From contig JBAIZL010000003.1 in the NCBI GenBank assembly GCA_036971475.1, forward strand, positions 47,164,342 through 47,228,341: 64,000 nt of DNA, written 5' to 3'. Position numbers and translations under genes: made by a program. Below, one piece after another: positions 2,763-22,508 of the stretch. Origin of the DNA: Prosapia bicincta (taxonomy: Eukaryota; Arthropoda; Insecta; Hemiptera; Cercopidae). Within the stretch, counting starts at the first letter, position 1; each line of letters opens with the position of its first letter. The notes under the pieces are model-generated. The model ran no database searches. It was not told the DNA's origin and worked only from the letters and a program-made list of their open reading frames with translations.

Positions 2763-5700
2763 TCATCTGACTTTATATAGTTTCTTGAAGAATGGAGTCA
2801 AATGTATGTGTGGGATGTTGTAGTGGATGTTTACCCAGCCCGTCGGGTGGTTTAACAGTTTCAAACGAGACTTGTAGAACCCATCGTGCGTCAAGGCTTT
2901 TCTGTTCTGTTCCTGTCTGCGAGTCAAGATTCTCAACTGTTCCGGGAGGTTGTAGTTTATTTTTATCTGGGCATGCAGAAGATTCTGGTCAATAGGTTTT
3001 GCAACAATGTGTGGAACTTGCGGTTTCTCTACTGGTTCTATGTCGCCATTGATTTGACCGACATTGACGTCAGGAACGGTCAAATTGAAATGTGCGTTTG
3101 TGACGTCATTCACGGCGACGTTATCCGTAAACGATGCAGAATTAATAGGGCTTGTGTTAATCATATGTGGCACATTTATACTCGGGTGAACCGCATGTGG
3201 CACATAAAAGCTTGGGTGGTCCTCTTGTGACACATTAAAGTTTGGATGAACGACAGGTGGCACATAAAGTCTTGAGTGAGCTACATATGGCACATAAAGG
3301 CTTGAGTGAACCACATGTGACACATTAGAGCTTGGGTGAACCACATTTGGCACATTAGGACTTGGGTGAACCACATGTGACACATAAAGGCTCGGGCGAA
3401 CCACATGGGACACGTTAAGGGTTGAGTGAAATACACGTGGTACATTAAGGCTGGGGTGGACGACATGTGGCACATTAAGGCTTGGGTGGACCACAGGTGG
3501 TACATAAAGGCTTGGGTGAACCACATGTGGCACATAAAGGCTTGGGTGAACTATATGTGACACATTAAGGCTTGGGTGAACCATATGTGACACATTAAGA
3601 GTTGGGTGAACCACATGCGACACATAAAGGCTGGAGTGGATTACATGTGGAACATTTATGTGTTCCGTGTTCACGTGATTAACGTTTACTTCAGACTTTA
3701 ATCCGTCGTCACTATCGAGACGATACTCCGGTCCCACGACTTTATAAACACTCGCGCTGTTTGCAACCCTCGTACTTCCACTCACGTCTGCAAACTTAGA
3801 ATCTGCCCCTTCAAAGTCAGGAATGCTAAGATGTAACTGCGGGTTTGCCAGACCATTAATGTATAAGTTATCAAGATATTGCTGACTGACGTTAATTTTT
3901 GGTAAAACGAATCGAGGTAACTGATATTTAGAACTGTTCACGTCCGTCGCTGGATATTTAGGAACGGGAAGGAAAGCTGTAGGATTATTAACGAAATAAC
4001 TTTGCTCCTGGTCTACATCCGTGATATTTTCTGAATAGTTGTCATTCCTTTGTAGATAATTTAGATTTGGTAGATGAAGAATGGGATTGATGTAGATGTG
4101 GTTGGAATTGTTGTCCTGATCTACATCTGTAGTACCATTTTCCGAATAGTTCCCACTCCTTTGTAAATATTCATAGTTATGTAGATGAAGAATATTTGTG
4201 ACATGTTTATGATTTGTACTTTGCTCTTGATCTACATACGTGATATTATTCTCAGGATAAGTGAAATTCATATGTAGATAGTTATAGCTTGGTAGATAAA
4301 GACCAGGTTTGACATATTTGTGACCTGGATTTTGCTCCTGATCAACAACTGTGATATTATTTTCTGGATAATCCTCATTCCTTAGTAGATAATTATAATT
4401 TGGTAGATAAAAAACAGGATTGACATATTTGTGGCCTGGATTTTGCTCCTGATCAACATCTGTGATATTATTTTCTGGATAATTCTCATTCCTTAGTAGA
4501 TAATTATAGTTTGGTAGATAAAAAACAGGATTGACATATTTGTGGCCTGGATTTTGCTTCTGATCAACATCTGTGATATTATTTTCTGGATAATTCTCAT
4601 TCCTTTGTAGATATTTATAGCTTGGTAGATAAAGAACAGGATTGACATAATTGTGATTTGTATTTTGTTCCTGATCAATATACGTGATGTTTTCCGGATG
4701 ATTCACAGTTGGTATAGATTCATTGTTGGGTAAATATGCAACAGGATTGGAATAATTATTATTTGTATTTTGTTCCTGATCAATATACGTGGTATTGTTT
4801 TCCGGATAATTCACATAAGTTGGTATAGATTCATTGTGGGGAGAATATGCAACAGGATTGACATAATTATGATTTGTATTTTGTTCCTGATCAATATACG
4901 TGATATTGTTTCCCGGATAATTCACATAAGTTGGTATAGATTCATTGTTGGGTAAATATGCAGCAGGATTGTTATAATTAAGATTTGTATTTTGTTCCTG
5001 ATCAATATACGTGATATTGTTTACCGGATAATTCACATAAGTTGGTATAGATTCATTGTTGGGTAAATATGCAGCAGGATTGATATAATTAAGATTTGTA
5101 TTTTGTTCCTGATCAATATACGTGATATTGTTTCCCGGATAATTCACATAAGTTGGTATAGATTCATTGTTGGGTAAATATGCAGCAGGATTGTTATAAT
5201 TAAGATTTGTATTTTGTTCCTGATCAATATACGTGATATTGTTTCCCGGATAATTCACATAAGTTGGTATAGATTCATTGTTGGGTAAATATGCAGCAGG
5301 ATTGTTATAATTAAGATTTGTATTTTGTTCCTGATCAATATACGTGATATTGTTTCCCGGATAATTCACATAAGTTGGTATAGATTCATTGTTGGGTAAA
5401 TATGCAGCAGGATTGTTATAATTAAGATTTGTATTTTGTTCCTGATCAATATACGTGATATTGTTTCCCGGATAATTCACATAAGTTGGTATAGATTCAT
5501 TGTTGGGTAAATATGCAGCAGGATTGATATAATTATGATTTGTATTTTGTTCCTGATCAATATACGTGATATTGTTTCCCGGATAATTCACATAAGTTGG
5601 TATAGATTCATTGTTGGGTAAATATGCAGCAGGATTGTTATAATTAAGATTTGTATTTTGTTCCTGATCAATATACGTGATATTGTTTCCCGGATAATTC

Positions 5701-20700: not shown

Positions 20701-22508
20701 ATATATATATATATATATATATATATATATATATATATATATATTTATATCACATCATATGGCTAAATAATACTTTTATAAACAATAATTTGTATTTTAT
20801 TTTTCTTCACACTGAAGCATTTCGCTGATTGGTAGCATCAGCATTATCAAAACTTGCCAACTACTTTATAGTTCCATGACTACAACTGGACTGTCAGACA
20901 GTGTCAGACTGTTCCAGCAAGGTGATCCAACCAGTCACACTGCTTAAGATAACATTGGTGTTTTCAAGAAACGTTTTCCAACCACCTTATCTCCCTTAGA
21001 ACAAACTTTCCCTGCCCAACCCACTCCCCCCGATCCTACACCACCTGGCCCTTCGTCTGGGAAATGATGAAGACAACTTTCCGTGATGACTCACCAACCA
21101 CCAACGTCCAGTTACAGGGAAAAAATAACCATGTGTATAACGAGCATGAAACAACCCCTCTTCACCAAAATGGCGCAAAACCTTCAAGAATGATGCGAGT
21201 GTTGCCTCAAATTGAACGGAAGCCAAATAGAACATGTTTATTCCCGAGTCTAACCGATTTAGCTACTTGTTACTTGTATGTGTTTGTAAAACTACGTAAA
21301 TAAAATAAAATGAAATAAAATACAGTCTTATAAGTTTTTCAGTAGGCCTACTGTTTATTTTGGCGCATACGGTATAACACCATAAAGCTAAGCTATATTA
21401 CATGCTTAGGGCTACTAGAGCAACTCTAATGCAAAGTAGTTCAGATACCTTCTACACCTTCACAGTCGATATTCACTTCTCCTTTGCTATGAATTACAAT
21501 GGAACAAGGCCCCTCCTGAAACATACATAATATTTTTAACTCCATCATCTAAAAAGAAACATTGAATTTATTTATGTTATATGTTTCCATCTTCAACTTA
21601 CGCTATTGCACCTCCATTACTTTAAAGCCCAGTAATTAGAACCCCATTAACTTGAAACCAATTAATTAAAAACCCATTAACTTAAACCCCAATAACTAAT
21701 ACCCCATGAACTTAAACCCCCTTAACTTAAACCCCAATAACTTGAACCCCATTAACTTAAACTTAATATTATTAAATACATTTTACAATATGTAAAATAC
21801 TTTTTAGCCTATAGTAGGACTTGATTTTAAAATCATATTTATAGTGACGTAACTACCCTCGAAAAAAATATCCATCTGTTATATACTCCACTGCCCTATC
21901 CTATAAATTATGAGCTATGGCCTATTACAGACTGATCGACATAACTTTTTATTTACAATAGTTACATATGTAAGTGTAATATCATCAGAGCCTTATACGA
22001 ACCTTATAGCCTCGTATACCTAATGTATAAGTGATAATACTTATATGTACTTTTAACAAATATTATATAATAACAAGATAAATATACCGATTTTGGCGAT
22101 TTTAAAGTAATCTACACAATTTTAAATTATTGTAAATTTTGTAGATATAGTAGAAACGTCGACAAATAAATAAATTTAATAAAATTATTCGTTCTGTTCT
22201 AGTCGTTAAAGTCTCGCATATTATTATTATTTACCTACAATCTTATCTCTATTACTAAACTGAACTCAATATTTACTCACTTCTTTATTGTTGACTAGTT
22301 CCTGGTGAATTCGCAGCGCGTCCATCAATGGGGCGGCCATTTTGTGCAGCATTTCGACGCTCTCGTTTTGCCGGACCGTTTTGTCCTGTTGCCACTTGTT
22401 TTTTATTTTTTTCATCGAAAAAACCGAATAGTAAAACGGATCGCTATGAGATATTGGGGTGGTGAAACTGTAGAGCTCGGAGATGATAAGAAAAAAAGAA
22501 AGGTACAT
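17744..22508 (-). CDS. Gene B: secreted repeat-rich paralogue of gene A, 3 exons
   Basis: Function is unrecognised. Exons are 22508-22281 (228 bp, donor GTGAGT), 21515-21449 (67 bp, acceptor TTTCAG, donor GTATCT) and 20184-17744 (acceptor TTTCAG), phases 0 and 1, giving 911 residues. Exon 1 starts with a likely signal peptide (LSFFLIISELYSF). Exon 2 has C-x13-C and matches gene A exon 2 at 10 of 22 residues. Residues about 146-180 hold the motif FSEVC-x2-IW-x2-LK, BESS-like in its pattern, at almost the same position as in gene A. Residues about 237-717 are 34-aa repeats with a GNDTG or GNNTG sequon. The C-terminal 190 residues are non-repetitive and contain a proline-rich stretch and two cysteines (PSC and QVC). 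An AATAAA lies at 17660-17655, 84 bp after the stop. Exon lengths equal to gene A show recent common ancestry. Confidence 0.85.
18330..19775 (-). repeat. Coding 102-bp tandem array (34-aa unit) in gene B
   Basis: About 14 units carry the pattern DVASVSPPEDV ... EGNDTGITT ... NVLPHT. Two unit types tend to alternate: one ends HIIEGNDTG, the other PIFEGNNTG. This produces a 204-bp higher-order repeat, and a block of several units is itself duplicated. Nearly all units keep one N-glycosylation sequon; serine, threonine and proline are abundant. Confidence 0.94.
20440..20690. repeat. Second foldback copy of the Penelope-type terminal repeat
   Basis: Same arms as 16196-16465 with a shorter centre near 20575, bordered on both sides by TA tracts (20391-20436 and 20690-20744). 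It lies in intron 2 of gene B. Confidence 0.85.
21605..21770. repeat. Degenerate 15-18-bp minisatellite in gene B intron 1
   Basis: About nine copies of units like AACCCCATTAACTTAAA, with drift in length and sequence. Confidence 0.85.

Follow-up and report, generated by a model that had tools for sequence, protein, structure and literature searches.

A candidate locally duplicated family of large secreted repeat proteins in Prosapia bicincta

What kind of proteins are encoded by the two long repeat-bearing genes, A and B, in a 64,000-nucleotide stretch of the Prosapia bicincta genome, and do these genes stand alone? The stretch (C199:47164342-47228341; hereinafter, the window) lies within a 2.2 Gb genome, and A and B had been singled out in a first-pass annotation as a tandem pair of genes for secreted proteins with an identical exon scaffold. 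The models of A, B and a further gene, C, are predictions from DNA, made from open frames and splice sites. On balance, the sequences favor the view that A, B and C arose by local duplication and form one family of large, secreted glycoproteins with a structural role. The three genes have in common a three-exon N-terminal part, followed by long repeats that bear N-glycosylation sequons and are unlike among the genes.

Gene models and kinship of A, B and C

Genes A and B occupy the minus strand of the window, and the annotated exon coordinates, the exon lengths (228 bp, 67 bp and long), the GT and AG sites and the intron phases (0 then 1) were all verified, the same sites being kept on another contig, C8, where the locus occurs a second time. 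Gene A consists of exon 1 (14277..14504, 228 bp; donor GTAAGT), an open frame also found on C8 that encodes a hydrophobic N-terminus and a polar stretch; exon 2 (9360..9426, 67 bp, phase 0 to 1; acceptor TTTTAG, donor GTAGTT), with a C-x13-C pattern; and exon 3 (2763..6889, 4127 bp), which encodes a helix motif containing the third cysteine, an array of 37-aa (111 bp) repeats with sequons (4001..5910), a block of 10-aa (30 bp) repeats (3149..3656) and a tail ending at the stop codon 2763-2765. Gene B is built likewise, from exon 1 (22281..22508, 228 bp, open; donor GTGAGT), exon 2 (21449..21515, 67 bp, phase 0 to 1, EGPCSIVIHSKGEVNIDCEGVE, C-x13-C; acceptor TTTCAG, donor GTATCT) and exon 3 (17744..20184, 2441 bp), with the third-cysteine helix motif, 34-aa (102 bp) repeats (18311..19773) and a non-repeat tail. 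The exons of B stand as first placed, but its stop codon (17744-17746) ends at 17744. All four introns are GT-AG (4850 and 2470 bp in A, 765 and 1264 bp in B), with phase 0 after residue 76 and phase 1 at codon 99 in both genes, and the translations, 1473 aa for A (169 kDa, computed) and 911 aa for B (99 kDa), contain no internal stops. The TATA-like box 88 bp before the ATG of A is at chance level (1.5 expected per 250 bp), and none is present within 250 bp before the ATG of B or of C. Intron 2 of A holds a 17 bp satellite (21 copies, window 7666-8027) that is seemingly longer in the C8 copy.

The annotated tandem pair proved to be part of a larger cluster: A and B are indeed relatives, but at least three genes are present, the third being C, located just to the left of the window, on the plus strand, in convergent orientation to A. 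Gene C was first noticed by its long frame, after which its exon 2 was found by eye and then by a scored scan. It comprises exon 1 (C199:47153406-47153606, 201 bp; donor GTAAGT), exon 2 (C199:47155770-47155839, 70 bp, ETPCAMILESTGNAKLNCQGLQE, C-x13-C) and exon 3 (from C199:47157370), with the third-cysteine helix motif and 32-aa repeats; the introns, of 2163 and 1530 bp, are in phases 0 and 1 as in A and B, and the joined exons encode 1581 aa without a stop in the readable part. For exon 1 of C, two frames satisfied a filter on hydropathy and donor site; the one not chosen belongs to a minisatellite. Beyond C, an open frame of about 180 aa (C199:47147390-47147935, window -16951 to -16406), in which a single hydrophobic segment is visible toward the end, is present in both copies of the locus; the opposite strand is open there too.

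The kinship of the three genes is best seen in exon 2 and at the start of exon 3. A score built from exon 2 of A and B was run over the readable parts of 124 kb, with candidates of 61-76 bp flanked by AG and GT and passing from phase 0 to phase 1; among the 1035 candidates, B scored 88, A 84.5 and C 62, with the next at 7.5. A corresponding scan for the exon 3 motif in 50328 windows ranked C third (36.5 vs 18.5 for the next). These scores are circular for A and B, but not for C. Comparisons with shuffled sequences agree: for exon 2 and for the first 100 aa of exon 3, none of 2000 shuffles reached the real score in any of the A-B, A-C and B-C comparisons. The previously reported identity of 10 of 22 exon 2 positions between A and B, with C-x13-C retained, was reproduced, and the motif they share near residue 150 could be located at C151 in A and C150 in B. 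Columns invariant in the three-way alignment include those of the three cysteines, of a glycine lying between cysteines one and two, and of a proline in the helix motif. With C beside the pair, the earlier claim of local duplication is supported. The homology of exon 2 and of the beginning of exon 3 across A, B and C is clear.

The case for exon 1 is different. Its homology across the genes is weakly indicated: for whole exon 1, 227 of 2000 shuffles reached the real score for A-B, 39 for A-C and 11 for B-C, so that kinship is not demonstrable from exon 1 of A and B alone. The identical scaffold described for A and B holds for lengths and phases, but little weight can be put on exon 1 being 228 bp in both, a match that is probably coincidental given the 201 bp of C. 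In the tails, the real score was reached by 0 of 500 shuffles for A-C, 22 for A-B and 103 for B-C, and the stretch of A before the repeats also resembles the C tail (1 of 500); since such similarity is possibly driven by composition, the tails were not used as evidence.

Searches for relatives and the second copy of the locus

The initial statement that no named family is recognizable withstood the searches, in which no Pfam family reached its cut-off for A, B or C and nothing convincing came from the PDB. The Pfam matches all fell below their cut-offs and were set aside, among them Tri-helical on the N-terminus of A (E 0.013) and MutL on the repeats of B (E 0.00027). The BESS motif (presumably PF02944), suggested by the helix pair, was not among the Pfam matches at E ≤10 for the motifs of the three genes, in a search where HMMER filters drop most weak matches. 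A PDB sequence search with a 109-aa piece of B yielded none, and one with the A/B/C profile yielded only two weak matches (E 0.074 and 2.4). In a protein database that covers insects, as a COQ10 query showed, no match at E ≤10 was found among 91 candidates for the N-terminus of B or among 874 for the A/B/C alignment; this search used N-terminal pieces and was restricted to proteins whose length was 0.55-1.75 times that of the query, a rule that shuts out full-length relatives. Searches of an open-access library turned up no paper recognizable as a description of the family. As far as N-terminal queries under that length rule can tell, the family is likely undescribed.

Within the genome, the N-termini of A, B and C gave 9, 8 and 7 matches, respectively, at E ≤10. 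Each query recovered the exons of its own gene from both C199 and C8; A and B also matched each other weakly (E 0.026-0.52), and residual matches on C350 (E 0.25) and C146 (E 2.41) were discarded because they contain stop codons. With the C query, neither A nor B was recovered, nor was C with the A and B queries, so that further members were possibly missed; these searches weakly suggest that the family is confined to this locus.

The second copy of the locus is extensive. About 74 kb (window -24 kb to 49.6 kb) run colinearly with an inverted 80 kb segment of C8; identity in the main aligned blocks is about 86-99%, the alignment including some unreadable gaps. On C8, A, B and C keep their exons and splice sites and are open (for C, as far as readable). 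The copies differ most conspicuously in B, which is 2134 aa (226 kDa) on C8, with 51 repeat unit anchors vs 15 in the window; the stop-free frames of B span 828 aa in the window and 2051 aa on C8. The C8 copy of A is 1584 aa. A block near window 26962-33260 is rearranged or inverted between the copies and contains a frame (window 26966-27853) that we take to be the RNase H-like part of a non-LTR element. A 77 bp minisatellite (35 copies, 96% matches, window 33731-36425) is present in the C8 copy too.

The C8 copy is likelier to be a second haplotype left in the assembly than a segmental duplication. Besides the 74 kb of colinearity, a COQ10 exon (window 50982-51455, minus strand) and an exon at C199:47253138-47253560 (plus strand; doubled at C8:15058136), presumably of the splicing factor SF3B1, are doubled in the same order, as would be the case for a retained haplotype; the doubled stretch therefore extends over about 113-122 kb, its part upstream of C8:15100001 having been sampled at these two genes only. 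The COQ10 gene and the presumed SF3B1 gene might be used as synteny anchors. A true segmental duplication, which would bring the number of genes to six, is a less probable but serious alternative: the assembly is not doubled throughout, as single copies of RPS6 and of a 540 bp segment 3 Mb away show. A stretch (L026) tried as a haplotype probe proved to be an uninformative dispersed repeat, and the telomere repeat, looked for at the contig ends, was not seen there. A second COQ10-like gene, 33% identical, occurs twice with equal scores, at C146:289388181 and C146:352160908, 63 Mb apart, and is perhaps part of another doubled stretch. The COQ10 region at 50982-51428 has 286 relatives at E ≤1e-10; among the 120 matches listed, the best named ones come from the leafhoppers Homalodisca (78%), Macrosteles (77%) and Graphocephala (76%), and another sequence reaches 89%; we read this as pointing to a cicadomorphan hemipteran. 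Also in the window, the open frame 58436-58813 (minus strand) resembles the end of what we assume to be a Tigger-like transposase.

Predicted products and their possible roles

The repeat units differ among the genes by eye and in length (37 aa in A, 34 aa in B, 32 aa in C). The arrays in the coding parts of A and B have periods of 30, 102 and 111 bp, all divisible by 3; among the non-coding arrays (dinucleotides aside), with periods of 17, 29 (also read as 87), 15, 280, 77, 293 and 50 bp, only 15 and the 87 reading are. In the repeat blocks, sequons are in excess over 300 shuffles. Inside the repeats, A has 35 (shuffled mean 13.7, highest 23), B 13 (5.3, 11), the C8 copy of B 52 (20.4, 32) and C 27 (14.2, 26); outside the repeats, the counts are 23 for A (12.3, 21), 6 for B (4.4, 11), 6 for B on C8 (4.4, 12) and 12 for C (4.5, 10). 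With secretion judged by hydropathy only, the best 10-aa means near the N-terminus are 2.8 in C, 2.59 in A and 2.12 in B, the latter with a glutamate inside, and no 19-aa window after residue 40 exceeds 1.6, that is, there is no later membrane-like segment by this measure. We infer that the products of all three genes are secreted, the start being clearest in C and weakest in B. If the hydrophobic start were removed, three cysteines would remain in A and five in B, on C199 and C8 alike. For the exon 3 motif of B, two helices were predicted (residues 42-59 and 63-86, block pLDDT 65-87).

These features suggest how the proteins might work. The hydrophobic start encoded in exon 1 would be removed and the product secreted; exon 2 would form a small beta-hairpin stapled by its two cysteines, as their 13-residue spacing, the invariant glycine and the alternating hydrophobic residues suit such a fold. 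The cysteine left over, given three in mature A and five in B, would link chains, making the N-terminal part the assembly point, and the glycosylated repeats would serve as flexible spacers tolerant of length change. An exocrine tissue may release the product as an extracellular gel, glue, foam or fibre; the Malpighian tubule or the salivary gland is our guess at the source, because related insects secrete such materials there. A bolder version, to which we give little credence, is that a single N-terminal module (helix, disulfide-stapled hairpin and cysteine-bearing helix pair) is joined to three unrelated glycosylated repeat bodies, producing a modular extracellular polymer, for example, a spittle foam or dwelling-tube scaffold, the genes for which have not been located before. 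The family reading, if true, would provide a gene-level handle on a structural secretion of cicadomorphan insects, along with a clear case of a conserved short exon scaffold with a swapped repeat body and a more than twofold length difference between copies.

More specific roles can be proposed, each of them improbable to a different degree. A mucin-like salivary gel or sheath protein secreted into the plant at feeding is conceivable although unlikely: planthopper feeding reportedly needs a mucin-like salivary protein, and the leafhopper NcSP75 is described as a secreted salivary protein without clear relatives (PMC6124752). Somewhat less plausible still is a nymphal Malpighian tubule material that forms the foam or fibrils of spittlebugs, or a similar secretion of cicada nymphs. 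The nearest named COQ10 relatives among the matches listed are leafhoppers, and a specialised Malpighian segment is reported to be common to spittlebugs, cicadas and leafhoppers/treehoppers (PMC10607721, PMC9697091), the tubules of related insects producing foam material, tube fibrils and brochosomes (PMC9697091). In the Mahanarva foam, 45% of 196 proteins are without homologues and five abundant, mostly uncharacterised proteins are of about 45-190 kDa (PMC12921220); the masses computed here are 169 kDa for A and 99 kDa for B in the window, and 226 kDa for B on C8. In another Mahanarva study, the abundant foam proteins are described as mostly extended helices, with WSC, S-layer, ankyrin and apolipophorin domains (PMC12911473), unlike the repeats here. 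The foam link is a lead rather than a test. Reproductive and eggshell secretions (accessory gland, egg glue, chorion) usually include fast-evolving secreted repeat proteins with length alleles, but no feature of the window is specific to such a role, which we consider quite improbable.

The frames were also examined for coding constraint. In A outside its 37-aa repeats (with the 10-aa repeats included), the copies differ at 18 of about 527 synonymous sites and at 25 of about 1981 nonsynonymous ones (p = 0.0019), and A and B pooled show 20 synonymous and 32 nonsynonymous differences (p = 0.0055). Among the distinct repeat units (11 of 16 in A, 24 of 28 in C, and 11 of 14 in the window and 26 of 48 on C8 in B), the ratio of nonsynonymous to synonymous differences per site (pN/pS) in the true frame is 0.71 in A and 0.53 in C, compared with 0.80 and 0.93, and 0.89 and 1.65, in the respective wrong frames; the true frame is the most constrained one in both genes.

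Several observations weigh against a family of secreted structural glycoproteins. Between the two copies of B, 2 of about 310 synonymous sites and 7 of about 1097 nonsynonymous sites differ (p = 1.0), with no sign of purifying selection, and the true frame of this gene (pN/pS 0.88 in the window, 1.08 on C8) is not the most constrained, the wrong frames yielding 0.70 and 1.27 in the window and 0.72 and 1.59 on C8; the hydrophobic start of B is weak, and AlphaFold gave no fold for its tail (mean pLDDT 37). Furthermore, the helix model was built on two sequences and has an overall mean pLDDT of 61, the readable part of C holds four cysteines, an even number, and the sequon excess in the repeats is inflated because one unit was copied many times. 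The case for B as a coding gene rests on its kinship with A and C together with its stop-free frames. It is very improbable that the frames are chance or decaying tandem arrays with misjoined exons, as the lack of constraint on B between the copies, its neutral-looking units and the ease with which an array with a period that is a multiple of 3 stays open might suggest, given the common three-exon start of three genes with unlike repeats, the openness of both copies and the constraint on A.

Comparison with known systems

The nearest analogue of A, B and C, compared by description rather than by sequence, are the Drosophila glue genes, Sgs and Eig71Ee (PMC6352337). Like A, B and C as predicted here, the glue genes have a signal-peptide start, partly clustered paralogues and a shared intron ahead of internal repeats; the repeats diverge fast in number and sequence, with the number varying within a population, and the proteins are glycosylated, with cysteines that are thought to link chains (PMC6352337). 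The same text places a phase 1 intron of the glue genes inside the signal peptide (PMC6352337), whereas here the hydrophobic start is wholly in exon 1 and the first intron is in phase 0. Because the position and phase of the intron differ, A, B and C do not belong to the Drosophila Sgs family. Unlike in the glue genes, the repeats of A, B and C carry N-glycosylation sequons. The glue repeats are rich in proline, threonine and serine, residues that make up 10.9%, 9.2% and 8.6%, respectively, of the whole B protein, with its 15 vs 51 anchors; A is instead rich in asparagine (16.5%).

Genes of the silk heavy-chain type similarly have short 5' exons, one giant repeat exon and length alleles, but to the eye the repeats here do not resemble those of fibroins, and the asparagine content of A sets it apart. 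Like the bicycle effector genes of aphids, the genes described here are hemipteran, fast-evolving, recognisable by exon structure and predicted to encode secreted proteins. The bicycle genes have about 17 exons on average, and at least five, nearly all the internal ones in phase 2 (PMC9168663); A, B and C have three, including one giant repeat exon, and the single internal exon of each model starts at codon position 1. The brochosomins of leafhoppers, the nearest named COQ10 relatives among the matches listed, are likewise orphan secreted proteins, of 21-40 kDa (PMC10607721) vs 99-226 kDa computed here. Exon structure excludes A, B and C from the bicycle genes, and size from the brochosomins. 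As a kind, such genes are ordinary, given that insect glues, silks and mucins behave alike. The genes A, B and C thus appear to represent a new family within this familiar class of insect secretory proteins, of interest for a modular head attached to different bodies and for the difference in length between copies.

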